Source: Polyangiaceae bacterium | GTDB lineage: Bacteria > Myxococcota_A > Polyangia > Polyangiales > Polyangiaceae | Assembly (NCBI GenBank): GCA_019637295.1 | Contig: JAHBVX010000009.1 | Coordinates: 186,001 to 250,000 of the forward strand | DNA length: 64,000 bases | Direction of reading: 5' to 3' | Shown here: piece by piece, positions 3,509-53,999 of the stretch | Layout: every line of letters starts with the position of its first letter | Numbering within the stretch: position 1 is the first letter of the stretch | Made by a program: the position numbers and the translations under genes | Notes under the pieces: model-generated | Seen by the model: the letters and a program-made list of their open reading frames with translations, nothing else | The model's database searches: none | What the model was told of the DNA's origin: nothing

Positions 3509-4741
3509 ATGATCCGCGGGATGGTGCTCGCCTCCCCGTTTCGAGCGTTGCGTCCGACGCCGGCCGTCGCGCCGCGGGTCGCGTCGGTGCCCTACGACGT
3601 GGTGTCCACCGAGGAGGCCCGCGTCGGCGCGGACGGGGAGCCGTTGTCGTTCTTGCGCGTCACTCGCTCCGAGCTCGAGCTCGAGGCGGACGCGGATCCC
3701 TACGCGGATGAGGTCTACGAGCGCGCCCGTCGCAACTTTCAGAGTCTCAGGCAGAGAGCGCCGCTGCTGACCGAGGCTGAGCCCAGCCTCTACCTCTACC
3801 GCATGACCATGGGCGAGCACACGCAGACGGGCGTGGCCGCTGCCTTCTCGGTGGACGAGTACGAGCACGGGAGCATCAAGCGACACGAGAAGACGCGACG
3901 TGCAAAGGAGGACGACCGCACCCGTCACATCACCCGCTTGCGGGCGCAGACCGGTGTCGTGCTGCTCACCTACCGCGCGACCGAGGACATCGACACCATC
4001 GTCGAGCGCGCGGTGCAGGACGAGCCCTTGTACGATTTCGTCGCGCCGGACGGCGTTGCTCATCGAGTCTGGCGCACGTCCGCGAGCACGCGGGACGCGC
4101 TGACGGTCGCGTTCTCCCGAGTGCGAGCGCTCTACATCGCCGATGGCCACCATCGGGCCGCGTCCGCCGCGCGCGCGCGCGCCGAGCTCCGAGGGCAGGA
4201 TCCGACCACGGTGGAGCCCTGTGACACGTTCTTGGCGGTCGCGTTCCCCGACGCGCAGATGCAGGTGATGGCGTACCACCGGGTGGTGCGCGATCTGGCC
4301 GGGCACAGCGTCGACGCCTTTTGGGCGGAGCTCGAGGGGAGGTTTCGCACCCTCACCCCGACCCCGACCCCGCCCGGCGCAGGGACCTTCTCGGTGTACG
4401 CCGCTGGCGCGTGGCGCAGCTTCGAGCTCGAGCCCGCCAACGGAGACGGCTCGCCGGTCGAGGCACTCGATGCCGAGCGCTTGTCGCGCCAAGTTCTCGC
4501 TCCGCTGCTCGGCATCGACGATCTGCGCACCGACACCCGGGTCGATTTCGTGGGCGGCATCCGCGGCGTCCCGGAGCTCGAGCGCCGGGTAGACTCGGGT
4601 GAAGCGAGCGCCGCCTTCGCGCTGCACCCCGTGAGCATCGCGGAGCTGCTCGCGGTCGCCGACGCCGGCCAGATCATGCCGCCCAAGTCCACCTGGTTCG
4701 AGCCGAAGCTCAGAGATGGCTTGCTCATCCGCGAGATCTGA
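3509..4741 (+). CDS. DUF1015 family protein
   Basis: A 410-residue protein matching the DUF1015 pattern: an N-terminal P-Y-D-V-V (about 29-33), the segment L-Y-L-Y-R-M, then H-E-K-T-R-R-A-K-E-D-D-R and I-A-D-G-H-H-R in the middle. The family is widespread, often near serine metabolism genes in other bacteria, and its biochemical role is not settled. The start could also be the ATG at 3521, four codons in; neither has a clear Shine-Dalgarno. A short Thr-Pro repeat near residues 283-290 comes from a CCCCGA repeat at about 4355. Its end overlaps the next gene by 26 bases. Confidence 0.8.
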   Translation: MIRGMVLASPFRALRPTPAVAPRVASVPYDVVSTEEARVGADGEPLSFLRVTRSELELEADADPYADEVYERARRNFQSLRQRAPLLTEAEPSLYLYRMTMGEHTQTGVAAAFSVDEYEHGSIKRHEKTRRAKEDDRTRHITRLRAQTGVVLLTYRATEDIDTIVERAVQDEPLYDFVAPDGVAHRVWRTSASTRDALTVAFSRVRALYIADGHHRAASAARARAELRGQDPTTVEPCDTFLAVAFPDAQMQVMAYHRVVRDLAGHSVDAFWAELEGRFRTLTPTPTPPGAGTFSVYAAGAWRSFELEPANGDGSPVEALDAERLSRQVLAPLLGIDDLRTDTRVDFVGGIRGVPELERRVDSGEASAAFALHPVSIAELLAVADAGQIMPPKSTWFEPKLRDGLLIREI

Positions 4742-5873
4742 GCCGGGTCGCGCGCTCGCTGCCCTGGTCGCGGTCGCGCTGACGGCAGCGTGCGGCAGCG
4801 AAGGCGCGCCCGACCCCGGCTGCCCGGCGCCGGGAGCGGGTCGCGTCGTCACCGCAGACTGGCTGAACCGCTCGCTCACGGTGCTGGACCTCGGGCGCGC
4901 GAGCGACGCGCGCTGCGACGAGACCCAGGCGATCCTCGAGCGCATCGACCTGTCCGCTCACGCGCCGGGACCCATCGAGCTCGAGCTGTTGCCCGGCGGC
5001 ACGTCCGCGCTGGTGACGATTGGCCCTGGGTTCTTTGCCGGCGCGGGCAGCGCGCTGGTCGGCTCCCCCAGCATCGAGCCCGGCGGCGGTCTGCTCGTCG
5101 TCGACCTGGAGCAAGGTCTGGTCAGCCACGAGATCGCGCTCAGCGAAGTGCCCATGGGGCTCGCCGTGTCCCCGGATGGCAAGCGAGCGTTCACGGCCAA
5201 CTACGGGGACGGCGCCACGCTGGGCAGCACGGTCTCGGTCGTGGATCTGGAGCAGGGCGACGAGCTGGCCGCTGTTGTCGTCGGGCAAGGGCCCGAGCAG
5301 ATCGCGCTCACGCCGGATGGAGCCATTGGAGCGGTGAACCTCGCGGCCGAGGGCGCGGTGCGCTTCTTCCGCACGAGCGACGTACAGGCCACGCTCTCGC
5401 CGCCCGTGCCCACGGGCAGCGATCCTTCGGACCTGGCGTTCGCGACTGACGTTGCGCGCGCCCTCGTCACCAACTCGCAGAGCTTCAGCGTGTCGGTCAT
5501 CGACTTCGCTGCCTGGCGGGACGATCCCGTGGGGGCATTGCCCGAGGTCGTCGCGACAGTGGCCACTCTAGGCGTGCCTTACGCAGCGACCGTGGTGCCG
5601 AACACGAACGTCGTGCTGGTGGGCGCTACGCTCGGAACTGCCTCCGTCGTCGCCATCGATCTCGGTGCCGCGGCGCCCACGGCGTCGGAGCCGATCCCGT
5701 TGTTTGGCAGCGCGTTCGCCCTGAGCCTTGGCGTCGATGCCGCGGGACGCCTTGCGTTCGTGCCGCATCCCGCGGAGCGGCTGCTCTCGGTGCTCGAGCT
5801 CGACACCGGACGCACCCGCGGCCTCACCTGGCTGACCGACGTCGGCCCGACCTACGTCGCGGTGAAGCCATGA
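4716..5873 (+). CDS. Beta-propeller lipoprotein (YncE-like)
   Basis: A 385-residue predicted lipoprotein: the hydrophobic signal ends in the lipobox L-T-A-A-C (Cys about 26). The mature part is built of repeats of the type V-S-V-V-D-L...P-D-G...A, such as L-A-V-S-P-D-G-K-R-A-F-T-A-N-Y-G-D-G, typical of YncE/lactonase seven-bladed propellers. Such proteins bind ligands or partners outside the inner membrane; no catalytic residues could be assigned. The gene begins inside the DUF1015 gene and its stop overlaps the next start (ATGA at 5870), so it is co-translated with both neighbours. Confidence 0.8.
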   Translation: MACSSARSEPGRALAALVAVALTAACGSEGAPDPGCPAPGAGRVVTADWLNRSLTVLDLGRASDARCDETQAILERIDLSAHAPGPIELELLPGGTSALVTIGPGFFAGAGSALVGSPSIEPGGGLLVVDLEQGLVSHEIALSEVPMGLAVSPDGKRAFTANYGDGATLGSTVSVVDLEQGDELAAVVVGQGPEQIALTPDGAIGAVNLAAEGAVRFFRTSDVQATLSPPVPTGSDPSDLAFATDVARALVTNSQSFSVSVIDFAAWRDDPVGALPEVVATVATLGVPYAATVVPNTNVVLVGATLGTASVVAIDLGAAAPTASEPIPLFGSAFALSLGVDAAGRLAFVPHPAERLLSVLELDTGRTRGLTWLTDVGPTYVAVKP

Positions 5874-7102
5874 AGTCGGGCGAGGAGCGCCCGCGCTCGG
5901 ACGCGGAGGTCGAACCCGGCTGGCGCTGCGTGAACATGACCGTGACTCCGTCCGGGCCGGTCATGACCCTGCTACAGGCGGGCCTCGTCGCGACGGGGTT
6001 CGTGTTCATCCCCGCCGTGGCGGGGGTGGTCTCCGGTGGCTTTCACCTGCTGCCTTGGTGCCTGCCCTTCGCGGTGATGGTGCTCGTCTACCGGCAGCTG
6101 CTCGCGCGAGGGCAGCTGGGCAGCGGTCGCGCGCGACTCGATGGCGGCACCCTCGTGCTCGAGGGCCGGAGGCGCCGCCGTCGCCTGAAGCTCGATGACC
6201 TGCGAGGCGGCTCCCGCGCGGGGCCGAGCACGACGCTGCAGTTTCGGAGCGGCGCCCAGGCGTCGCTCTCGCTGCACAGCGAGCACGAGGCCGAAGCGTT
6301 GCTCGACCAGACCGGGACTTCAGTCGGGCAGCGCACCCTCTCGCTGCAGCTGCGCGGGACGATCGGGCCGTTCGTGGCGGGACTGCTGTTTTTCTTCGCC
6401 CTGTACACGCCGGTCTGGCTGGGCCTGGCGGCGGTCTTGTCGGTCATCGCTGGACTCCAGGGCTGGGCGCTGTCCAGCGTCCAGCCGGCTGCGGTGCTGC
6501 TCTCGCTGGTGACGTCCGCCGCGCTCGGCTGGTGGCTCGCGCGGGTGCGCGCGCCCAAGGTGACCATCGGCCAAGACGGGGTCGTCATCGAGCGCTGGCT
6601 TCGCCGCCGGTTCGTCCCTCACTCGGCGATACGGAGCGTGACGCGCAGCGGGATGTCCGTAGACCTCGCCTTGGGCGACGAGACCGTCTCGCTCGCCACC
6701 ATCGGCTGGAGTGAGGAGCAGGAGCTCGCGGCGCTTCGCCGCCTCCACGACGCCCGAGCGCTGTTCGACCAGGCTCGCGAGGCTGGCCCCGAGCGCGATG
6801 CGCTGTTCGCCCGACGCGGACAGAACGTGGCCGAGTGGCGAGAGCAGCTGCTCGACGCCGGGTTTCGTCGCAGAGTCGTGACGGACGCCGACGCCGAGTC
6901 GGTACTGAATGACGCCACTCAGCCGCTCGAGCACCGAGCCGGCGCCGCCCTCGCCCTCCGGGCGCTCGACCCCGCTCAGGGAGAGCGTCGCGTTCGCGTC
7001 GCCGCGGAGGTGGCCGCGGACCCCCGCGCCCGCGAAGTGCTGCTCGGGATGCTCGAGGCCGACGCCGAGGTCGAGGCGACGCTCCGGCGGCTGAAGAGGT
7101 AA
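5870..7102 (+). CDS. Integral membrane protein of unknown function
   Basis: A 410-residue protein not recognised as a named family. There are two clusters of hydrophobic helices: residues about 30-75 and about 160-225. Each is followed by a soluble beta-rich stretch with a basic patch (R-R-R-R-R-R-L-K-L-D-D-L near 98-109) that resembles the PH-like domains of bacterial membrane proteins, a tentative reading. The C-terminal 130 residues are charged, helical and Ala/Arg/Glu-rich. It overlaps the preceding lipoprotein gene and lies 9 bases ahead of the YihY gene, so it belongs to the same transcription unit. Confidence 0.6.
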   Translation: MKSGEERPRSDAEVEPGWRCVNMTVTPSGPVMTLLQAGLVATGFVFIPAVAGVVSGGFHLLPWCLPFAVMVLVYRQLLARGQLGSGRARLDGGTLVLEGRRRRRRLKLDDLRGGSRAGPSTTLQFRSGAQASLSLHSEHEAEALLDQTGTSVGQRTLSLQLRGTIGPFVAGLLFFFALYTPVWLGLAAVLSVIAGLQGWALSSVQPAAVLLSLVTSAALGWWLARVRAPKVTIGQDGVVIERWLRRRFVPHSAIRSVTRSGMSVDLALGDETVSLATIGWSEEQELAALRRLHDARALFDQAREAGPERDALFARRGQNVAEWREQLLDAGFRRRVVTDADAESVLNDATQPLEHRAGAALALRALDPAQGERRVRVAAEVAADPRAREVLLGMLEADAEVEATLRRLKR

Positions 7103-39027: not shown

Positions 39028-39084
39028 GCGTCACTCTCGGGATTGCGATTCGCGAGGCGAGGTACTACCAGAGGCAATCGCGAC

Positions 39085-41838
39085 ATGCGCTTCCGCTCCT
39101 CGCCCTTCGTCGTGGCGGCAACGCTGGCCGCGTCGCCAGCGGCCGTCGCCCAGACAGGTGATGGCGACACGGGCTCGGTGCCGCGCGGTGGCCCGGGCGC
39201 CGTGGTGCGCCCAGCCGCGCCCGCCGCGCCGAAGGCGGTGGTGAAGATGCCCGAGCTGGTGCGCTTCGTCGAGGCGCCATACCCGGCCGCTGCTGCGAGC
39301 GCGGGCGTACAGGGGGACGTCATCCTGCGCTTGACCATCGACGTCGAGGGTCGTGTCACCCAGGTGGAGGTGGTGGAGCCGGCGGGGCACGGTTTCGACG
39401 AGGCAGCGCGCGAGGCGGCCCGTCGCTTCGAGTTCCAACCGGCCACCCGCGACGGCAAGCCGATCGCTGCCAAGATCTTGTACAAGTACTCGTTCACGCT
39501 CAAGGCGGCGCCGCCGCCGAAGGACGCACCCAAGAGCAAGCCGAGCGTCGGCAATCTCGGCGGCGTCCTGCGCATCGCCGACACGAACTCGCCGCTCGCC
39601 GGCGCGGAGGTGGTGGTGGTCCTTCCGGACGGCACGGAGCGACGCGTGCTCACGGACGACGCAGGGCGCTGGGAGCTGCGCGAGCTGGCCCCCGGTCGCT
39701 ATCGGGTGCGCGCGGGCGCTCAGGGCTTTCAGACTCGGGAGGAGGTCGAAGAGATCAGCGCCGGACAGGCGACGGAGGTGACCTACCGGCTGGCCCCCGA
39801 GCTCGAGGAGGGCACCCTCGAGGTCGTGGTGCAGGGCGAGCGCCCGCCGCGGGAGGTCACCCGCCGGACCTTGGAGCGCCGCGAGATCGAGCGGATCCCC
39901 GGCACCAGCGGCGACGCTCTGCGCTCGATCCAGAGCTTGCCCGGCGTCGCGCGACCCCCGGGGCTAGCAGGGCTGCTCATCGTGCGCGGCTCCGCGCCGA
40001 ACGACACCGAGACCTTCGTGGACGGCACCACCGTACCGTTGATCTATCACTTTGGCGGCCTCTCGAGCGTGGTGCCGACCGAGCTGCTCGATCGCATCGA
40101 CTTCTACCCGGGCAATTTCAGCGCTCGGTACGGCCGCGTGCAGGGCGGCATCGTGGACGTGGGGCTGCGCAAGCCCAACACGCGTTGCACTGGCCCCTAC
40201 GGCAAGCCCTCGGAAGAGACGGGCTGCTATCACGGGCTCGCGCAGGTCGATCTCATCGATGCCCGCGTGCTGGCCCAGGGACCCATCCCGGGGCTCCCCA
40301 AGTGGAGCTTCGCGGTCGGAGGGCGCCGCAGCTGGATCGATGCGTGGCTCAAGCCCGTGCTCGAGGAGTCCGGCGCCGGTGTGACGACCGCGCCCGTTTA
40401 CTACGACTACCAAGCCATCGCCGAGCACGAGCCCACGCCCAAGTCGCGCCTGAGCTTGCGGGGCTTCGGCTCCGACGATCGGCTCGAGATCCTGATCCGC
40501 GACCCCGTGGCGGAGGATCCGGCGTTCGGCGGCAACATCCGCTTCCGCACCGCCTTCCACCAAGGTCAGGCCCTGTACACCGGCGAGCTGTCTCCGGACG
40601 TGGACTTCTCGTCGATGGCGGGATTTCAGTACGGCCTCATCCGGTTCTCGCTCGGCAACTTCCTGTTCGACCTGGACATCTACGCGGTCACGCTGCGCAA
40701 CGAGCTCGGCTTCAAGCTGGGCAAAGGGTTCAAGCTCAACGCCGGGATGGACTTCTTGACTGGGCCCGCGGAGGTCACCGTGCGCGCGCCGCCGCCGCCG
40801 CGGCCGGGGGAGCCGAGCCCCGGTCCCTTCGCCTCCCGTCCGGTGCTCGAGACGCAGCAGCAGATCATGCTCTACCGCCCGGCCTGGTACCTGGAGGGAG
40901 AGTGGACGCCCACTGCTCGGCTGCGGGTAGTCCCGGGGGTACGGCTCGACTATGCGCGTGACTCCGGTCATGCGGACGTGAGCCCGCGCTTCAACGCGCG
41001 CTACGATCTGGTGTCCCCCACGGACGGCGACGAAGAAGCTGCCTCCAGCGCAGCAGGCCGCCGCCGCATGCGCACGACGGTGAAGGGCGGCGTGGGCGTC
41101 TACCACCAGCCGCCGGAGTTCCAGCAGACCGACGAGGTCTTCGGCACGCCCGGCATCCGCTCCAACCGAGCGATTCACTACTCGGTCGGTGTGGAGCAGG
41201 AGCTGACGCGTCACGTCGAGCTGAGCGTCGAGGGCTTCTACAAGGATCTCGACAATCAGGTGTCCCGCGCTCCCAACGATCGCGGCGCGTTCACCTACAA
41301 CAACGAGGGGCTCGGCTCGGTCCACGGCCTGGAGACGCTGCTGAAGTACAAGCCCGACTCGCGCTTCTTCGGTTGGCTGGCGTACACTTTGTCACGCAGC
41401 GTGCGGCAAGATGGCCCCGACGATCCCGAGTACTTGTTCCAGTTCGACCAGACCCACAACTTGATCATGCTCGGCAGCTACCGGCTCGGGCGCGGGTGGG
41501 AGTTCGGCGCGCGCTTCCGCATCGTGTCCGGGCCGCTCGCGACGCCCGTGCTTCGCGCGCCCGCGTTGCCGGCGCTGTTCTCCGCGGACGCCGGCGCTTA
41601 CACGCCGCTACAAGGTGAGCCCTACAGCGAGAGGTTGCCGTTGTTCCACCAGCTCGACCTACGGGTGGACAAGCGCTGGCAGTTCCAAGACTGGCGCCTG
41701 AGCGCCTACCTCGACGTGCAGAACGCCTACAACAATCAGGCGGTCGAGGCGCTGGTGTACAACTACAACTTCAGCCAAGAGACCTATCAGACGGGCCTGC
41801 CCCTCATCCCCAGCGTGGGCCTCCGAGGTGAGTTTTGA
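39085..41838 (+). CDS. TonB-dependent outer-membrane receptor with fused TonB C-terminal domain
   Basis: A 917-residue exported protein (ATG at 39085; signal ending A-V-A-Q). Domain order: a TonB C-terminal-like domain (about 50-145: A-P-Y-P-A-A-A-A-S-A-G-V-Q-G-D-V through F-E-F-Q-P-A), a carboxypeptidase-regulatory-like beta sandwich (about 160-245), the plug (R-S-I-Q-S-L-P-G-V-A-R-P, then F-Y-P-G-N-F-S-A-R-Y-G) and a 22-strand barrel ending in aromatic-rich strands and a final Phe. Outer-membrane transport driven by TonB is the known role; the fused TonB domain is unusual outside this group. It overlaps the next lipoprotein gene. Confidence 0.92.
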   Translation: MRFRSSPFVVAATLAASPAAVAQTGDGDTGSVPRGGPGAVVRPAAPAAPKAVVKMPELVRFVEAPYPAAAASAGVQGDVILRLTIDVEGRVTQVEVVEPAGHGFDEAAREAARRFEFQPATRDGKPIAAKILYKYSFTLKAAPPPKDAPKSKPSVGNLGGVLRIADTNSPLAGAEVVVVLPDGTERRVLTDDAGRWELRELAPGRYRVRAGAQGFQTREEVEEISAGQATEVTYRLAPELEEGTLEVVVQGERPPREVTRRTLERREIERIPGTSGDALRSIQSLPGVARPPGLAGLLIVRGSAPNDTETFVDGTTVPLIYHFGGLSSVVPTELLDRIDFYPGNFSARYGRVQGGIVDVGLRKPNTRCTGPYGKPSEETGCYHGLAQVDLIDARVLAQGPIPGLPKWSFAVGGRRSWIDAWLKPVLEESGAGVTTAPVYYDYQAIAEHEPTPKSRLSLRGFGSDDRLEILIRDPVAEDPAFGGNIRFRTAFHQGQALYTGELSPDVDFSSMAGFQYGLIRFSLGNFLFDLDIYAVTLRNELGFKLGKGFKLNAGMDFLTGPAEVTVRAPPPPRPGEPSPGPFASRPVLETQQQIMLYRPAWYLEGEWTPTARLRVVPGVRLDYARDSGHADVSPRFNARYDLVSPTDGDEEAASSAAGRRRMRTTVKGGVGVYHQPPEFQQTDEVFGTPGIRSNRAIHYSVGVEQELTRHVELSVEGFYKDLDNQVSRAPNDRGAFTYNNEGLGSVHGLETLLKYKPDSRFFGWLAYTLSRSVRQDGPDDPEYLFQFDQTHNLIMLGSYRLGRGWEFGARFRIVSGPLATPVLRAPALPALFSADAGAYTPLQGEPYSERLPLFHQLDLRVDKRWQFQDWRLSAYLDVQNAYNNQAVEALVYNYNFSQETYQTGLPLIPSVGLRGEF

Positions 41839-46231: not shown

Positions 46232-48184
46232 GTGCGAGGAAGCGTCGTTCGTCCGTGGCTGCTCGCGATGCTGCTGCCGGCGGGTGCCCTCGCGGTTCCA
46301 GCGCCGCGCTGGCTCGACTCGATGACCCCCACGCCCGTCGTCCCGCCGCCGGTGCCGCTGCCTGCTGGCGCCCTGCGCACGCTCGCCACGAGTCCGGTGA
46401 ACGTCACCTCCATCGCCTACGACCTCACCCTCGACCCAACGACCGGCGCGGCAAGCGGGACCGTCACCGTCGAGCTCGGCTCACCCACGGTCGCGATCAC
46501 CGGGCTGCTGCTGTACATGGACCCGGGGCTCGCCGTCACCGCGGCGAGCAGCAGCACCGGCGGGGCGACGACGAGCGTGGACGACGCGTGGGGCTATCGC
46601 TACGTGTCTGTCTCCCTCGCGCAGCCCGCGCCGAGCGGCTCCGCCGCGTCGGTGACGATCGACTTCTCCGGCACGCTGGCGTGCCCGGATCAACAGGGGC
46701 GCCAGAGCTGCAGCATGCAGCAGGAGCTCTCCTACGCGCTCCAGGGCTCGGCGCTGCCGGGCGTATACGATCAGTTCCAGGTGGGCGGCTTCAACGCCTG
46801 GCCCGCTGAGCGCGCGCTCACGCTCCGGACGCCTGTGGGCGTCTCCGCCGTTGCCAGTGGGGAGCTGACGAGTGAGAGCACCGAGGCCGGAATGCTGGTG
46901 CGCAAGTGGACGACTCCAGGGTACGCCTCGGCGGGCGGCTACTTGGTCGTGCTCGGACAGCTCGAGACGTCACCCATTGCAGGTGGCTCCTTACCGAGCA
47001 GCGTGGTGTACGCGAAGAGCATGCCCAACTTCACAGCCAAGATGGGCTCATGGATGGGCTCGATCCTGCCCTTCGTGGACGCGCAGGCGGGCGCGCCGCT
47101 GCCGTACCCCCAGCTGTCGGTGGTGAAGCTGCCGGCCGGGCAAGGGTTCCCCGGTACGGCGGGTCATGGCATCACGCTGCTGAGCGAGTCCTATGGAGGC
47201 TACGGCGACGCCTACTTCGAGGAGACCCTCGCTCACGAGCACGCGCATCAGTGGTGGGGCGTGCTGGTCTCGCCCAGCGACGTGGGGGTCACCCGCTTGC
47301 TCACCGAAGGGCTCGCGACCCAGACGCAGGTTCACTACGCCGCGCGGCTGCTCGACGGAGACGCCCGCGAGCGCTTCCTGAGCCGCCGACTGCGCGAACA
47401 CCAGATGCTCCTGCGCTATCACACCAATCCCGCTGAGCTGCCTGCGTTGGTCGTCGCGAGCCCCCAGTTGGCGCCGGCCGACTCCGTGGGCCACACCGTG
47501 TGGGCGTACATCAAGTCCAGCGCAACGCTGGAGCACCTGCGAGCGGCCATCGGGGACGCCGCCTACGCCGAGCTACTCGTGAAGTATGCGGCCAAGTGTC
47601 AGATGGCCGCCTGCGCAACCGCTGATTTCACCGCTGTGGCCGAGCAGGTGAGCGGCGAGTCGCTCACGGCGTTCATGAGCCAGTGGGTGTACGCCACGAA
47701 CTATCCGGAGCTGCGCCTCTCGTTCAGCGAGCAGCCGGCGGCCGAGGGAGTGGAGGTCACGCTGCAGGTCTCGGGGGCGGAGGGCCTCGAGGTCCCGCTC
47801 GCCTTGCTGGTGACGCTCGAGACTGGAGAGGTGCTCCGTCGCCGCGTGACCTTGCCCAAGACGGGTGAGGCCGTCAGCTTCCAGGTGCCATCGGCCGTGC
47901 GCAGCGTTCGCCCCAGCGCGCGTCACGACGCGGTGATCTGGAGCCGCTCGGCCCAAGACGGCGACGTCGACTTCGATGGCGAGGTCGACGGCTTCGATCT
48001 GCTCTACTGCGCGCGGACCGTGGGCATGAACACGGGGCTCTACCAAGAGGGAGGCGAGGGTCTTTGGCAGATGAACCTCGACTTCGACCCCCGCTGCGAC
48101 GGGGTATTCGACGGTCAGATGACCACAGCGGATCTAGGCGGCATCTTCGCCGCGTTCGGCAGCCTGCGGGAGCCGAAGCCGTGA
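46232..48184 (+). CDS. Exported M1-like metallopeptidase with C-terminal dockerin-like domain
   Basis: A 650-residue exported protein from GTG. After the signal peptide comes an M1-type N-terminal beta domain (about 55-255), then the zinc site H-E-H-A-H (335-339) with a downstream L-L-T-E-G-L-A (Glu359). There are 19 residues between the last His and Glu359, one more than the usual 18, and the G-x-M-E-N aminopeptidase motif is missing (G-T-A-G-H-G in its place). A beta domain (about 495-570) is followed by two calcium-loop repeats, D-V-D-F-D-G-E-V-D-G-F-D (578-589) and D-G-V-F-D-G-Q-M-T-T-A-D (623-634), the hallmark of dockerins. It overlaps a lipoprotein gene carrying a cohesin-like domain. 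Confidence 0.85.
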   Translation: MRGSVVRPWLLAMLLPAGALAVPAPRWLDSMTPTPVVPPPVPLPAGALRTLATSPVNVTSIAYDLTLDPTTGAASGTVTVELGSPTVAITGLLLYMDPGLAVTAASSSTGGATTSVDDAWGYRYVSVSLAQPAPSGSAASVTIDFSGTLACPDQQGRQSCSMQQELSYALQGSALPGVYDQFQVGGFNAWPAERALTLRTPVGVSAVASGELTSESTEAGMLVRKWTTPGYASAGGYLVVLGQLETSPIAGGSLPSSVVYAKSMPNFTAKMGSWMGSILPFVDAQAGAPLPYPQLSVVKLPAGQGFPGTAGHGITLLSESYGGYGDAYFEETLAHEHAHQWWGVLVSPSDVGVTRLLTEGLATQTQVHYAARLLDGDARERFLSRRLREHQMLLRYHTNPAELPALVVASPQLAPADSVGHTVWAYIKSSATLEHLRAAIGDAAYAELLVKYAAKCQMAACATADFTAVAEQVSGESLTAFMSQWVYATNYPELRLSFSEQPAAEGVEVTLQVSGAEGLEVPLALLVTLETGEVLRRRVTLPKTGEAVSFQVPSAVRSVRPSARHDAVIWSRSAQDGDVDFDGEVDGFDLLYCARTVGMNTGLYQEGGEGLWQMNLDFDPRCDGVFDGQMTTADLGGIFAAFGSLREPKP

Positions 48185-48717
48185 GGCGCTGCTTCGCCAC
48201 CCTGCTGTGCGGCGCTCTCGCGCTCGCCACGCTCGGCTGCTCACAGGACGATCCCCCCAAGCAGGCGGCGGGCCCCCGTCAGGACTTCGTCGCGGATTCG
48301 CCGGTCGGGGGGCCCGCGCTCAGCCTGCGGCTCTCGAGCAAGAGCGCGACGTCGCTGACGCTGCAGATCGTTGGCAGTGGCATCGCGGAAACGAGCGGGG
48401 TTGCCTATCGCCTGAGCTATGACGCCGCCGTGCTGTCGTACTCGGCGCAGCGGGTAGGAGCGGGGTTCTCGGCCGTCGGCGACACGGTGGCGGCCGCCAA
48501 AGAGTCGCGTCCCGGGCTGCTGGTGGGCGCTGTGGGCGTGCAGGGACTGGGCACGCTGAAGGCGCAAGACGTCGTGCTCGCCGAGGTGGATTTCGCGCTC
48601 CCGGGCAAGGGCCAGACCCGAGTCGACTTCGTGCCAGGCCGCAGCGCCGCCCTCGACGCGCAGTCCGCGCCGTTGCCCGGCGTCAGCCTGCTCGGCGGCT
48701 CCTTGACCGTGCGCTGA
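48181..48717 (+). CDS. Cohesin-like lipoprotein
   Basis: A 178-residue lipoprotein starting at GTG inside the stop of the dockerin peptidase gene (GTGA). The lipobox is L-A-T-L-G-C (Cys about 20). The ~135-residue mature domain has the cohesin pattern: Y-R-L-S-Y-D-A-A-V-L-S-Y, then G-L-L-V-G-A-V-G-V-Q-G-L-G, then V-V-L-A-E-V-D-F-A-L-P and a final L-G-G-S-L-T-V-R strand. Cohesins bind dockerins tightly in the presence of calcium. The genetic coupling suggests that it holds the peptidase on the outer membrane. The fold call is by eye. Confidence 0.72.
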   Translation: MRRCFATLLCGALALATLGCSQDDPPKQAAGPRQDFVADSPVGGPALSLRLSSKSATSLTLQIVGSGIAETSGVAYRLSYDAAVLSYSAQRVGAGFSAVGDTVAAAKESRPGLLVGAVGVQGLGTLKAQDVVLAEVDFALPGKGQTRVDFVPGRSAALDAQSAPLPGVSLLGGSLTVR

Positions 48718-48732: not shown

Positions 48733-50151
48733 CTAGTCGCGTCGCACGTACTCGAACTCGACAGCCTTGCCCTTGATGCCGCGGTTGGGGGCGGCGATCC
48801 AGTTGGCCATCTTGCCGGGTTCGAGCACGGGCTCCTGCATCAGCTCGTCGATGAAGGCCCGATCCGCGGGGCTGGGCAGCCAATCGCCCTGCTTCGCAGC
48901 CCAGCCGGCTTCGTCCAAGGGCTGGCCGTCGGGGGAGAAGTGCATCCCCGCGTACAGGCCCACGTGACGGTGAAAGCGCCTGCTCGGCAGCCGCAGCTCG
49001 AAGTCCACGCCGGCCTCGGCGATGGTCTTGTTCCACTTGTCCACGCCGCGCTGGCAGTCCTCCACGTACGCGTCGCGCAAGATCTCGTTCATGGCGTTGC
49101 GCAGGCTCACGCTCTCTTCGACGAGCTTGCCGTCCTTCGGGACGGTCATCTCGTAGCTGCCCTCGAGCGCCACGTGGTCTTCGTAGCGGTCCTCGTGCGC
49201 GCGGCCCTTGAGGCCCGTGGCAAAGTACTGCGCCGCGTTGCTCGAGACCTCTCCGCCGAAGAGGTCCAAGCTCTGAGAGTACCAGTAGTTCAGGTAGCGT
49301 TGCACCGTCGGCAGGTCGATCAGTCCGAGCTCCCGCGGCTCCCGACCCGGGTTCGCCTTCATCTGCTCGGCGGTCCGCTTGACGATGCGCTGTACGCCGG
49401 TCTCGCCGACGAACATGTGGTGCGCCTCCTCCGTCAGCATGAAGCGAGTCGTCCGGCTGAGGGGGTCGAAGGAGCTCTCCGCCAGGGCCAAGAGCTGGAA
49501 CTTGCCGTCCCGATCCGTGAAGAAGGTGAACATGAAGAAGCTGAGCCAGTCCAGCATCGGCGCGTTGAACGCGCCGAGGATACGCGGGTTGTCGGCGTCG
49601 CCGCTGCGGCGCTCGAGCAGCGCTTCGGCTTCTTCCCGGCCATCACGACCGAAGTGGCTGTGCAGCAGGTAGACCATGGCCCACAGGTGGCGCCCCTCCT
49701 CCACGTTGACCTGGAACAGGTTGCGCAGGTCATACAGGCTTGGCGCGGTCTCCCCCAGACGCCGCTGTTGCTCCACGCTGGCCGGCTCCGTGTCACCCTG
49801 GGTGACGATCAACCGCCGTAGCGCGTTGCGGTGTTCCCCGGGCACCTCCTGCCACACGGGCTTGCCCATCTCGTCGCCGAAGCCGATGCGCCGGTCCTTG
49901 ACCGGGTCTGCCAGGAAGATGCCCCAGCGGTAGTCCGGCATCTTCACGTAGTCGAAGTGCGCCCAGCCGTCCGAGTCCGCGCTGATGGCGGTGCGCAGCC
50001 ACACGTCGTGGGCCTGGAAGCCGACGGGGCCCATTTCGACCCACCACTTCACGAAGCTGGGTTGCCACTGTTCGAGCGCGCGCTGCAGGCGCCGGTCGCT
50101 CGCGAGGTCGACGTTGTTGGGGATCTTCTCGTTGGTTGCGATCTGTGACAT
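48733..50151 (-). CDS. boxB: Benzoyl-CoA 2,3-epoxidase, oxygenase subunit
   Basis: A 472-residue BoxB. The ATG at 50151 has GGAG upstream at a normal distance and gives the family N-terminus. The di-iron carboxylate residues are visible in V-N-V-E-E-G-R-H-L-W and L-T-E-E-A-H-H-M-F, with further Glu/His in F-F-T-F and L-L-E-R helices. BoxB, with the reductase BoxA, turns benzoyl-CoA into 2,3-epoxybenzoyl-CoA. It lies 11 bases after boxC. No boxA or benzoate-CoA ligase gene is in the window. Confidence 0.95.
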   Translation of the reverse strand: MSQIATNEKIPNNVDLASDRRLQRALEQWQPSFVKWWVEMGPVGFQAHDVWLRTAISADSDGWAHFDYVKMPDYRWGIFLADPVKDRRIGFGDEMGKPVWQEVPGEHRNALRRLIVTQGDTEPASVEQQRRLGETAPSLYDLRNLFQVNVEEGRHLWAMVYLLHSHFGRDGREEAEALLERRSGDADNPRILGAFNAPMLDWLSFFMFTFFTDRDGKFQLLALAESSFDPLSRTTRFMLTEEAHHMFVGETGVQRIVKRTAEQMKANPGREPRELGLIDLPTVQRYLNYWYSQSLDLFGGEVSSNAAQYFATGLKGRAHEDRYEDHVALEGSYEMTVPKDGKLVEESVSLRNAMNEILRDAYVEDCQRGVDKWNKTIAEAGVDFELRLPSRRFHRHVGLYAGMHFSPDGQPLDEAGWAAKQGDWLPSPADRAFIDELMQEPVLEPGKMANWIAAPNRGIKGKAVEFEYVRRD

Positions 50152-50162
50152 GGCGGTCTCCG

Positions 50163-51797
50163 TCAGGTGCGGCGGTAGTCGAACACCGGGCGCTCCGGCG
50201 ATCCGTACAAGGTCAGGGCGCCCTTCTCGCCGACGGCGTTCGGGCGCTGGAAGATCCAGTTCTGCCAAGCCGAGAGGCGTCCGAAGATCTTCGTCTCCAT
50301 CGTCTCCGGGCCCGCGAAGCGCAGCGACGCTTCCATACCGGTCAGCGCGTCTGGCGAGAACGCCGCGCGCTCCTCGATGGCGATGCGGACCTCGTCGTCC
50401 CAGTCCAGGTCGTCTGGCGCGTAGGTGACCAGCCCGAGCTCGAGGGCGCGGTCCGCGGCGATCGGCCCTTCCTGGCCGCGCAGCTCATCCACGTGCTCGG
50501 GAGTCGCCAGGAAGCGGGTGGCGAGACGTGACAAGCCGTTGCTCATCGGCAGCGCGCCGAACGACAACGCCGACAGCGCGACCGTCGGGCCGCCGCTCAC
50601 GTCGAGCATGTACGAGCGGTCCGCCGCCAGCGCGAGCTCGAACAGGCTGCCGGCGAAGCAGGAGCCGGGTTCGATGAAGGCAAACGCGGTACGTGCGGAC
50701 AAGTCGAGCCGCTTGAGGACGCGCGCCATGTGCCAGAGAACCTCCCGCGCAAACCAGTCGCGCTCCGCCAGAGCCAGCAGGCGTGCGTCGTGCGCCAGCA
50801 CCGTCGCCGGCTCGCCCGAGGTCTTCAGCGCGATCACGCCGATGTCCAGGTGGTTGAAGCGCAGATCGAGCAGCGCGGCGTCGAGCTCGCGCATGGCCCG
50901 GAGGGACCAGGCGTCTGCGCCCTGAATGCGCAAAGCGCTGGCGTCGGCCGGCGGCGCCTCGGTTGGCCCGGCGACGGTCAACGTCGCCAGTCGCCGCTTG
51001 CGATCCACCGCGAGTGTGACGTGACGATAGCGAGTCACGTCGCCGTCTCGCGTGGGCTCGAGGGGGGGGAGCTTCACGCCCGGTCCCTCGCGCTCAGCGC
51101 GACCCTGCGCCAGCCGCGTGCTCGCGGCTTTCACGGCATCATCGAACTTGGAGCGTGGCGCGATCTCGTCCACCAGGCGCCACTGCACGGCGCGCTTGCC
51201 CCGGACGCCTTCGGCCACCGTGCTGAACGCATCCGCCAGATCGCGGCGTACCTTGCGCTTGTCCACCAAACGCGTCAGGCCGCCGGTTCCCGGGAGCACG
51301 CCGAGCAGCGGGACCTCCGGCAAGCTGACCGCGGTGTTGCCGTCGTCCTGCAGAAGGATGTGATCGCAAGCCATGGCCAGCTCGTAACCGCCGCCGGACG
51401 CCGTGCCGTTCAGCGCGGCGATCGAGGGCACGCCGGTCTGCGCCGAGAGCGTCTCGAGGTACAGCCGAGTCTCGTTGGTGTACTTGCAGAAGTTCACCTT
51501 GAAGGCATGGCTGGAGCTGCCCAGCATGTAGATGTTCGCGCCGGAGCAGAAGATGCCATCCTTCAGGCTGGTGACGACCAGCGCCTTCACCTCCGGGTGC
51601 TCGAAGCGGATACGCTGAATGGAGTCCGCCAGCTCGATGTCCACGCCCAGATCGTAGCTGTTGAGCTTCAGGACGTAGTCCCCGGCCAGCGCGCCGTCCT
51701 CGGGCACGTTCATCGCGAGGGTGGCCACGGGGCCATCGAAGGTCAGCTTCCAGCGGCTGTAGCGGTCGGGCGACGTGTCGAAGCGGATGGGGTCCAT
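50163..51797 (-). CDS. boxC: 2,3-Epoxybenzoyl-CoA dihydrolase
   Basis: A 544-residue BoxC, made of two crotonase-like halves. The N-terminal half shows D-G-I-F-C-S-G-A-N-I-Y-M-L-G and A-L-N-G-T-A-S-G-G-G-Y-E-L-A-M-A, the oxyanion-hole and active-site loops; the C-terminal half is the extension typical of BoxC. It opens the epoxide ring and releases formate to give 3,4-dehydroadipyl-CoA semialdehyde. It is first in the boxCB operon and starts about 40 bases from the nearest BoxR-type operator repeat, facing boxR. Confidence 0.95.
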   Translation of the reverse strand: MDPIRFDTSPDRYSRWKLTFDGPVATLAMNVPEDGALAGDYVLKLNSYDLGVDIELADSIQRIRFEHPEVKALVVTSLKDGIFCSGANIYMLGSSSHAFKVNFCKYTNETRLYLETLSAQTGVPSIAALNGTASGGGYELAMACDHILLQDDGNTAVSLPEVPLLGVLPGTGGLTRLVDKRKVRRDLADAFSTVAEGVRGKRAVQWRLVDEIAPRSKFDDAVKAASTRLAQGRAEREGPGVKLPPLEPTRDGDVTRYRHVTLAVDRKRRLATLTVAGPTEAPPADASALRIQGADAWSLRAMRELDAALLDLRFNHLDIGVIALKTSGEPATVLAHDARLLALAERDWFAREVLWHMARVLKRLDLSARTAFAFIEPGSCFAGSLFELALAADRSYMLDVSGGPTVALSALSFGALPMSNGLSRLATRFLATPEHVDELRGQEGPIAADRALELGLVTYAPDDLDWDDEVRIAIEERAAFSPDALTGMEASLRFAGPETMETKIFGRLSAWQNWIFQRPNAVGEKGALTLYGSPERPVFDYRRT

Positions 51798-51831
51798 GGG
51801 GCAGAGTCACCTAGCGGCACCTCCGCCGACG

Positions 51832-51880
51832 TGCAAGCAATAAATTGCATGACGGAGATCATGCTATGCATTATAGTGCA
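51832..51880. promoter_or_regulatory. Divergent boxC/boxR promoter with BoxR/BzdR-type operators
   Basis: TGCA occurs four times (51832, 51846, 51867, 51877). The last two form TGCA-N6-TGCA exactly, the operator type known for BzdR/BoxR. GCATGA (51847-51852) and TCATGC (51859-51864) form a second inverted repeat with a 6-base spacer, and GCAATAAATTGC (51837-51848) a third. On the minus strand a perfect TATAAT (plus-strand positions 51870-51875) lies inside the TGCA-N6-TGCA site, so a bound repressor would cover the -10 box of boxC. Confidence 0.65.
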
Positions 51881-52630
51881 GAAGTGATGGTTTCCCGGAA
51901 CGTCGTGCTCGCGGACCTCGGCCGCGCGGTGCGCGCGGCGCGCGCGGGTCGGGAGCTGACCCTGGCCCAGCTCAGCGATCGGGCGGGGGTGAGCCTGCGC
52001 TTCCTGGCGCAGCTCGAGGCAGGCCAAGGCAACATCAGCGTCGTCCGGCTGTGCGACGTCGCCGCCGCTCTCGGCACGACGGCCTCTCTGCTGCTGTCGA
52101 GCGCGGAGGCCGGTCCGGCGCGCTCGCTGCGGGTGGCGCTGCTCGGCTTGCGGGGAGCGGGCAAGAGCACCGTGGGCCCGGAGCTCGCCCGGCGCCTGGG
52201 CGCTTCGTTCGTGGAGCTCGACCAGCTCGTCGAGCAGAGCGCCGGCATGTCGCTGGCGGAGGTGTTCGAGTTGAAGGGCACGACACACTACCGCCGCCTC
52301 GAGCGGGACGCGCTCCAGCAGATCCTGAGCGACGACAGCCCCGCCGTGATCGCTACCGGCGGGAGCATCGTGAGCGATCCGAGGACCTTCGCGCTGCTGC
52401 GCAAGGGCGCGACGACGGTCTGGCTCAAGGCCCGCCCAGAAGACCACATGGACCGAGTCCGCGCCCAAGGGGACGAGCGTCCGATGCGTGACCGGCAGAA
52501 CGCCATGGCCGAGCTGAGGGCGCTGCTGCGCTCCCGCGCGCCGTTGTACACCAGCGCCGACCACGTCGTGGACACGTCGAACCGAACCGTGAGAGCGACG
52601 GTGGACGACTTGTGCCGCTTGCTGACGTGA
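51866..52630 (+). CDS. boxR: Benzoyl-CoA responsive regulator (HTH plus shikimate-kinase-like domain)
   Basis: About 254 residues. The ATG at 51866 has GGAG 8 bases upstream; ATG at 51887 and TTG at 51845 are alternatives, and 51887 would keep the operator outside the gene. Residues about 15-75 are an XRE helix-turn-helix (L-A-Q-L-S-D-R-A-G-V-S-L-R-F-L-A-Q-L-E-A). The remainder is shikimate-kinase-like with the P-loop G-L-R-G-A-G-K-S-T-V-G and A-T-G-G-S-I-V. This fusion is the hallmark of BzdR/BoxR, repressors released by benzoyl-CoA. It diverges from boxCB. Confidence 0.92.
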   Translation: MHYSAEVMVSRNVVLADLGRAVRAARAGRELTLAQLSDRAGVSLRFLAQLEAGQGNISVVRLCDVAAALGTTASLLLSSAEAGPARSLRVALLGLRGAGKSTVGPELARRLGASFVELDQLVEQSAGMSLAEVFELKGTTHYRRLERDALQQILSDDSPAVIATGGSIVSDPRTFALLRKGATTVWLKARPEDHMDRVRAQGDERPMRDRQNAMAELRALLRSRAPLYTSADHVVDTSNRTVRATVDDLCRLLT

Positions 52631-52949
52631 CGGCTGTGCGGTCCGGCTGTCGCGAGGGCGGTGGCGTGGGCGTCTGCGGGGGCGTTCGCGGGGGCGGGGG
52701 CGTGGGCGGAGGCGTGTTGCGGGGGCGTGGGCGGAGGCGTGTTGCGGGGGCGTGGGCGCGGTCTGCGCTGCGGTCGTCTGAGGCTGTTGCGGGGGCGTGG
52801 GCGATGGAGTCGGCGCGGCCGTGAAGCGACTGCGGGGGCGTGTTGCGGTGGGCCATCACGGGGTTCTCTGCCCGACCGGGGGGCGGGTGCTTGATCGGCA
52901 ATGGAGCGCGTGTCAGCGTCTCCGGAGCTGGTATGTCTTTGGAGCTCGA
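52631..52949. other. Non-coding spacer, G-rich on the plus strand
   Basis: This 319-base stretch between boxR and the cytochrome-like lipoprotein gene holds no supported gene. Most of it (52650-52860) is repetitive and strongly G-rich on the plus strand, with several GGGGG runs that could fold as G-quadruplexes. Long frames on the minus strand here read as Pro/Thr/Arg-rich low complexity and are products of the repeat. Confidence 0.6.
52701..52758 (+). repeat. Tandem 25-bp G-rich repeat
   Basis: Two perfect copies of a 25-base unit lie head to tail at 52701-52725 and 52726-52750, each beginning CGTGGGCGGAGG and ending TTGCGGGGG. A partial third begins at 52751. Related pieces of the unit (TGTTGCGGGGGCGTGGGCG) return at about 52784-52803 and 52830-52847. 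Confidence 0.75.
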
Positions 52950-53999
52950 GTGAAGCCGTGGTCGTTCATCCTCGGGCTCGGCGCGCTCGGGGCGTGTTCG
53001 AGCGAGACGCCTGCGGAAGCTCCGGGCGGTGGTCTGCTCGACGCGGGGCTCGACGCGGAAGCGTCGACCACCGAGGCGGGTGGTGACGCGGCTGGTGACG
53101 CGGGTTCCGATTCGGCGCCGCCCTTCGACGGCCCGGAGACCCTGGCGGACACCGGGCTGTACGCCGACATCGGGAGCAAGACGATCGCCGCAGACGTGAT
53201 CGCGTTTGGGGTTCGCTATCCGCTGTGGTCCGACGGCGCGGAGAAGGCGCGCTTCTTCCGGCTGCCCCCGGGTGAGGTGATCGACACCTCGAACATGGAC
53301 TTCTGGAAGTTCCCCTTGGGCACCCGCGCGTGGAAGGAGTTCTCCCTTGGCGGCAAGCGCCTCGAGACGCGCTACCTCGAGAAGCGCGGGTCCGGGCCCG
53401 AGGGGTGGCTCGAGATCAGCTACGTCTGGGACGCAGGCGAGACCAACGCGCTGCCCATGGTCCTCGGGCAGCCGAACGTGGCCGGCACGAGCCACGACGT
53501 GCCGAGCAGTCAAGACTGCACTCAGTGTCACAACGGCGCGGGGGACGTGCTCATCGGCGTCAGCGCCATCCAGCTCAGCGCAGGCGGGACGCTGAGCGAG
53601 TGGACGGCTGCGGGGCGCTTCTCGATCGCGCCGCCCACGGACATCGACGTGCCCGGCACGGGGAACGTGCAGGACGCGCTCGGCTATCTCCACGCCCAGT
53701 GCGGTCACTGCCACAACGACGTGCACTTCCTCGCGAGCAAGCGCCTGATGCGGCTGCGGCTGCCCAGCGCACCTCTGTCGCCGGGGCAAACGCCCACCTA
53801 CCTGACCACGATCGGCGGCGCGATGAGCCACTCCATCGCCGGTAGCACCATCGCCGTCGTGCCCGGCGCCCCGGATCAGAGCCAGCTCTTCTTGCGTATG
53901 ACCAAGCGCGACTTCGACGCCATGCCTCCGCTGGGCACCAAGGTCGTCGACCCGGAGGGGCTCGCCACCATCTCGACCTGGATCAGCTCGCTGCAGTGA
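52950..53999 (+). CDS. Di-haem c-type cytochrome-like lipoprotein
   Basis: A 349-residue lipoprotein from GTG at 52950, with GGAG 5 bases upstream. The lipobox is L-G-A-C (Cys about 15), followed by an acidic Ala/Gly/Asp linker. Two haem-binding C-x-x-C-H motifs are seen: C-T-Q-C-H (about 190) and C-G-H-C-H (about 250), each preceded by a conserved-looking block ([15 protein letters not shown]). The pattern resembles the surface cytochrome-like proteins common in Myxococcota and Planctomycetes. A redox role outside the inner membrane is likely; the partner is unknown. Confidence 0.8.

Follow-up and report, generated by a model that had tools for sequence, protein, structure and literature searches.

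The locus described here raises the question of whether a metallopeptidase and the lipoprotein encoded directly after it belong together as a dockerin and its cohesin and, if so, what such a pair would do outside a cellulosome. The two genes lie in a 64,000 nt stretch of DNA (the window) from a 7.65 Mb genome whose relatives belong to the Myxococcota. An earlier note, made from the sequence alone, had proposed that they encode a dedicated one-to-one pair of a kind not previously described.

Gene layout and surroundings

The first gene (46232–48184, GTG start) encodes a protein of 650 aa which was identified from its translation, Pfam searches and alignment as an M1-family metallopeptidase with a C-terminal dockerin. 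The second (48181–48717, GTG start) encodes a lipoprotein of 178 aa, recognized as a cohesin from its translation, from Pfam matches in its relatives and from its predicted fold. Both genes, and all of the features within them given below, are on the forward strand. The start codon of the lipoprotein gene lies over the stop codon of the peptidase gene in the sequence GTGA (48181–48184), and the limits of both reading frames and the four-base overlap are exactly those of the earlier note. The two genes would form a translationally coupled module.

Genes for BoxB, BoxC and a BoxR-like regulator (aerobic benzoyl-CoA breakdown) are found directly downstream of the pair at 48733–52630. The box genes do not belong to the module, and homologues of them adjoining the pair were not found in the related loci compared; no other convincing shared neighbours were seen around the pair among those loci. 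Two further genes in the window, both on the forward strand, were also noted. One (52797–53999) encodes a probable lipoprotein that is matched by the diheme c-type cytochrome subfamily model TIGR03806 with a score below the cut-off. The other (39043–41838) is an ORF of 931 aa in which a domain of the energiser type, the TonB C-terminal domain (PF03544, 2.4e-18), is fused to a receptor consisting of a carboxypeptidase-regulatory domain, plug and TonB-dependent receptor barrel.

Relatives of the two proteins

The Pfam models Dockerin_1 (PF00404) and Cohesin (PF00963) do not match the window peptidase and lipoprotein, respectively, and a genome-wide Pfam search was likewise negative for both models. 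Hence, relatives were required in order to judge the domains. A scan of public genomes using the peptidase alignment yielded 11 further myxobacterial loci (12 members including the window), and in all 11 the lipoprotein gene adjoins the peptidase gene and overlaps it in ATGA or GTGA. Dockerin_1 matches 8 of the 12 aligned peptidases (best 1.4e-4) and Cohesin 7 of the 12 lipoproteins (best 1.7e-5), so that the Pfam models suggested in the earlier note miss the window proteins themselves and match some of their relatives. Models built without the window sequence recover both window proteins, with values of 5e-27 for the peptidase and 3e-31 for the lipoprotein, and have zero matches in 8,840 shuffled ORFs. 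With the addition of the pairs in loci L076–L078, the 12 members make up a window-type set of 15 pairs, in all of which the overlap is of four bases and reads NTGA.

When 184 genomes of the order were searched, the tail profile was found in 14 and the lipoprotein profile in the same 14, with one of each per genome and the two adjacent. The genome containing the window has one tail and one cohesin lipoprotein; Pfam and profile searches found no further dockerin or cohesin in it, and the search for other dockerin proteins that the earlier note had called for thus leaves the peptidase tail as the sole dockerin found. Additional weak matches to the lipoprotein profile in this genome and in relatives (E 0.007–0.16) look like matches to signal peptides and were set aside; the three that were read fully are unrelated proteins.

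An M1 peptidase lacking the aminopeptidase motif

The window peptidase is matched by the Pfam model Peptidase_M1 (3e-11) and begins with a probable Sec signal peptide, MRGSVVRPWLLAMLLPAGALA (46232–46294), assigned by eye from the translation. The zinc site and catalytic Glu, HEHAH (H335, E336 and H339; 47234–47248), are followed at the spacing HExxHx18E by the third zinc ligand, Glu359 (47306–47308), located by alignment, and HEHAH-x18-E, the zinc site that marks the M1 family, is invariant in all 12 aligned members. Tyr426 in a WAY motif (47507–47509), which is a candidate for the catalytic Tyr of M1 enzymes, is also invariant (12/12). The protein would be a Sec-exported zinc metallopeptidase of the M1 fold ending in a type I-like dockerin.

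At the position where the alignment would place the M1 exopeptidase motif GxMEN, the window protein has GTAGHG (47153–47170). GxMEN was absent from all of the members read, which have GTAxxG, GAAFGW or GGGYAP instead. GxMEN is the aminopeptidase (exopeptidase) motif of M1, and M1 subgroups without it have been described (PMC2241622). Because such subgroups are known, membership of the M1 family stands as judged from the sequence motifs, but the aminopeptidase label does not, and, since GxMEN is replaced throughout the members read, the putative enzyme is expected not to be an ordinary aminopeptidase. In one divergent M1-dockerin protein (L076, about 4229–6076), the third zinc-ligand Glu is replaced by Asp and the cohesin lipoprotein partner is kept; this peptidase is possibly inactive.

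The dockerin tail

The peptidase ends in two calcium loops of the dockerin type, as the earlier note had recognized. Loop 1, DVDFDGEVDGFD (residues 578–589, 47963–47998), is perfect, and loop 2, DGVFDGQMTTAD (residues 623–634, 48098–48133), is degenerate at positions 3 and 9, with two of the usual ligands gone in the window protein, though it is complete in several relatives. Translation and alignment thus reveal the two D-x-[DN]-x-D-G loops of a type I dockerin, with the second loop degenerate here, and each is followed by a helix (16–23 and 61–70 in the tail model). Two cysteines, Cys593 (48008–48010) and Cys622 (48095–48097), are conserved in all 12 rows of the window-type set, and their equivalents are missing from most other dockerin tails of the phylum. 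They may form a disulfide, which would make this a candidate disulfide-locked dockerin.

Modelled alone, the tail was predicted with middling confidence (pLDDT 72.8, pTM 0.55). In a Foldseek search with this model, 26 of the 27 matches were to chains in dockerin or cohesin-dockerin entries, none of them significant singly (E at least 0.2), and the best VIA-align match was a weak one to a Bacteroides cellulosolvens dockerin (Z 4.6). A profile search of the PDB with the tail also picks up EF-hand proteins.

The cohesin lipoprotein

The second protein has a signal peptide and a lipobox, identified by eye (ATLGC|SQDDPP), in which the LGC motif places the Cys at residue 20 (48238–48240), and N-termini are similar in the aligned relatives. 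Structure prediction for the mature lipoprotein, based on the alignment of 12 rows, gave a mean pLDDT of 90.3 and a pTM of 0.83. It consists of a single domain (mature residues about 22–159, 48301–48714) which, on the evidence of this model and of the Foldseek and VIA-align comparisons made with it, has the cohesin jelly-roll fold. All 50 Foldseek matches listed were to cohesin structures, to modules resembling cohesins or to scaffoldin complexes that contain a cohesin (best E 2e-7). With VIA-align, the best match had a Z of 15.2 and an rmsd of 2.6 over 132 residues, rows 1–49 were all cohesins, and the first non-cohesin was GspB at Z 9.4. A PDB search with the single lipoprotein sequence produced only chance matches, and the profile search returned mostly cohesins. 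A match to DUF2807 (E 0.15) is at chance level, has no support in the relatives and was rejected. The proposal that the only domain of the lipoprotein is cohesin-like is therefore borne out by the predicted structure and by the Pfam Cohesin matches in relatives. The mature protein would be lipidated, with its one cohesin attached through a short linker of some 20 residues.

A lipoprotein encoded next to an enzyme could also be its chaperone, activator or inhibitor rather than its anchor, as translational coupling, whichever gene comes first, is typical of enzyme-chaperone and enzyme-inhibitor pairs too. The Asp found as third zinc ligand in L076 would suit such a role, in that an enzyme may have lost its activity and still retain its partner. 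However, the cohesin is the only domain predicted in the lipoprotein and searches of the genome found no dockerin other than the peptidase tail, and we consider a role of this kind improbable.

Distribution and gene order in the phylum

In the phylum, 379 genomes were searched, of which 38 were matched by the tail profile and 32 by the cohesin profile. The loci were fetched and searched with models of the M1 body, the tail and the cohesin, revealing 39 more adjacent pairs on the same strand, or 54 in total with the 15 of the window type, a count that takes in L161, where the M1 gene is cut by a contig end. The loci L148 and L159, which are cut by contig ends, are exceptions to the pairing. The cohesin gene is downstream of the peptidase gene in one branch and upstream in another, and gene order tracks the peptidase tree with few changes. 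The four-base stop/start overlap was found at 9 of 13 downstream junctions and 19 of 20 upstream junctions which, with the 15 window-type pairs, makes 43 of the 48 examined. Four other matches to the tail in the phylum scan, in L170, L171, L176 and L177, are to non-M1 proteins; they are weak and not part of a pair, and were rejected.

Four further M1-dockerin genes (L164–L167), three of them from one clade, have no neighbouring cohesin gene, though each of these genomes has a full pair elsewhere, and these M1-dockerins may share the cohesin of their own genome. Hence, the pairing is not strictly one-to-one everywhere. The adjacency, overlap and co-occurrence of the two genes, which survived the inversion of gene order, support the dedicated pairing proposed in the earlier note, but its strict one-to-one form does not extend to these four genes. 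A mirror-tree test gave a partial r of 0.24 over 41 pairs (naive permutation p 0.001). Inside the window-type set, the partial r was −0.03, and the co-divergence of dockerin and cohesin does not exceed what shared descent accounts for; as the signal is gone there, pair-specific co-evolution was not relied on.

The retention of adjacency and coupling through the inversion is, at the level of gene sequence and order, the strongest argument that the two proteins would act jointly. It also bears on whether they bind at all. A cohesin-like fold that binds some other target and a tail that is a generic calcium repeat would be consistent with the EF-hand proteins among the PDB matches to the tail profile and with the weak structural match of the tail. 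However, adjacency outlasts the inversion across the phylum and both parts occur in the same genomes, which makes this explanation very improbable. We favour docking, and consider it likely that the exported peptidase docks onto the cohesin of its own lipoprotein and is thereby kept at the envelope, probably at the outer membrane. The dockerin would bind the cohesin one to one, presumably in a calcium-dependent manner through the two loops.

Membrane placement

Known cohesin-dockerin pairs bind very tightly, and ready release of a docked enzyme is therefore doubtful. The mature lipoprotein has Ser at +2 and Pro at +7. In Myxococcus xanthus, Lys+2 is found in inner-membrane lipoproteins and Ala+7 in those of the extracellular matrix, to which some lipoproteins are sent by an unknown route (PMC3222651). 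The residues here match neither Lys+2 nor Ala+7 and, by elimination, the lipoprotein would be in the outer membrane, where the docked peptidase is most likely to be held. No export signal beyond the signal peptide was seen in the peptidase sequence, and for this reason we give the periplasmic face the edge over the outside.

Docking at the inner face of the outer membrane, which refines the docking explanation and does not compete with it, would make the peptidase a periplasmic housekeeping or peptide-processing enzyme kept close to the membrane, as opposed to one with a surface or predatory role. This placement needs only export and lipoprotein sorting, for which the Sec signal and the lipobox suffice, the residues at +2 and +7 agree with simple sorting to the outer membrane as in M. 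xanthus (PMC3222651), the peptidase has no visible secretion tag apart from its signal peptide, and one pair per genome suits a single defined job. Against this, the cohesin-dockerin systems so far described mostly work outside the cell, and we give this placement an even chance. The surface-held protease of the earlier note, which was hypothesized there to serve a predator, with both proteins outside the outer membrane and the enzyme released as calcium falls, has precedents in the proteases docked on cell-bound cohesins in cellulosome bacteria (PMC12484212) and in the export of some M. xanthus lipoproteins to the matrix (PMC3222651). However, the sequences tested contain no indication of the outer face, and there is Pro at +7 where the M. 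xanthus matrix lipoproteins have Ala (PMC3222651); we regard this placement as rather unlikely.

Comparison with known systems

Most of what is known of cohesin-dockerin pairs comes from cellulosomes, though they have been noticed in all domains of life. A cellulosome, with a multi-cohesin scaffoldin and several dockerin enzymes, was not found here, as the whole genome yielded one cohesin and one dockerin. OlpA and OlpC of Clostridium thermocellum, whose cohesins (PDB 3ul4 and 4dh2) are matched by the lipoprotein model, are Gram-positive anchors of the cell surface; each has one type I cohesin, and their partners are encoded elsewhere. The NagJ and NagH proteins of Clostridium perfringens (PDB 2ozn and 2jh2) provide good fold matches and are, like the pair described here, a non-cellulosomal cohesin-dockerin pair of secreted enzymes, but they join enzymes to each other and have neither a lipoprotein anchor nor a dedicated operon with one peptidase.

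ScaE, the surface-anchoring cohesin of Ruminococcus flavefaciens, is an anchor of the sortase type shared by many of the dockerin proteins in a cellulosome. One of the proteins it binds (PMC12484212) is RflaF_05439, a putative cysteine peptidase with an X-dockerin (PMC3573020). As is proposed for the present pair, a peptidase with a dockerin is kept at the cell by an anchor with a single cohesin, but the bacterium is Gram-positive, the enzyme is a cysteine peptidase and the two do not form a dedicated two-gene pair. The S8 protease of C. thermocellum with a double dockerin (dDoc_0689) prefers the cell-bound scaffoldin ScaD (PMC12484212), and the proposed anchoring of a protease on the bacterial surface via a dockerin is alike. 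However, it is a serine protease with a double dockerin that uses the scaffoldin of a Gram-positive cellulosome bacterium. Non-cellulosomal cohesins and dockerins have been reported from ANME archaea (PMC9012536) and syntrophic sulfate reducers (PMC10553843). These and the Archaeoglobus fulgidus system (2xdh) resemble the present one in their non-cellulose use and possible cell-surface attachment, but partner domains and counts vary and, in the passages of those reports consulted, there is no pair of an M1 peptidase and a lipoprotein.

Hence, the claim that such a system had not been described does not hold for cohesin-anchored peptidases in general, which are on record (PMC12484212, PMC3573020), and appears to hold only for the form seen here. 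Neither the coupled pair itself, nor an M1-family peptidase with a dockerin, nor a dockerin in the Bradymonadales was found in the open-access literature, a body that leaves the 2009 survey of non-cellulosomal modules outside. The dedicated, translationally coupled pair of M1-dockerin and lipoprotein-cohesin genes of the Myxococcota, in its Gram-negative two-gene form, therefore appears to be new.

Implications

The pair looks like a minimal docking system of one enzyme and one anchor outside cellulosomes. A broader proposal, which we put forward only tentatively, is that docking unrelated to cellulose places, throughout this Gram-negative phylum, a non-aminopeptidase M1 enzyme on its own lipid-anchored cohesin, that holding and release are switched by calcium, and that the socket also serves a second M1-dockerin in certain genomes. 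The two-gene module of the Myxococcota, found in both gene orders, provides a clean case in which the role of cohesin-dockerin pairs outside cellulosomes can be tested. It further draws attention to a group of M1 peptidases that lack the aminopeptidase motif, and would offer a small, naturally occurring docking pair for Gram-negative cells.
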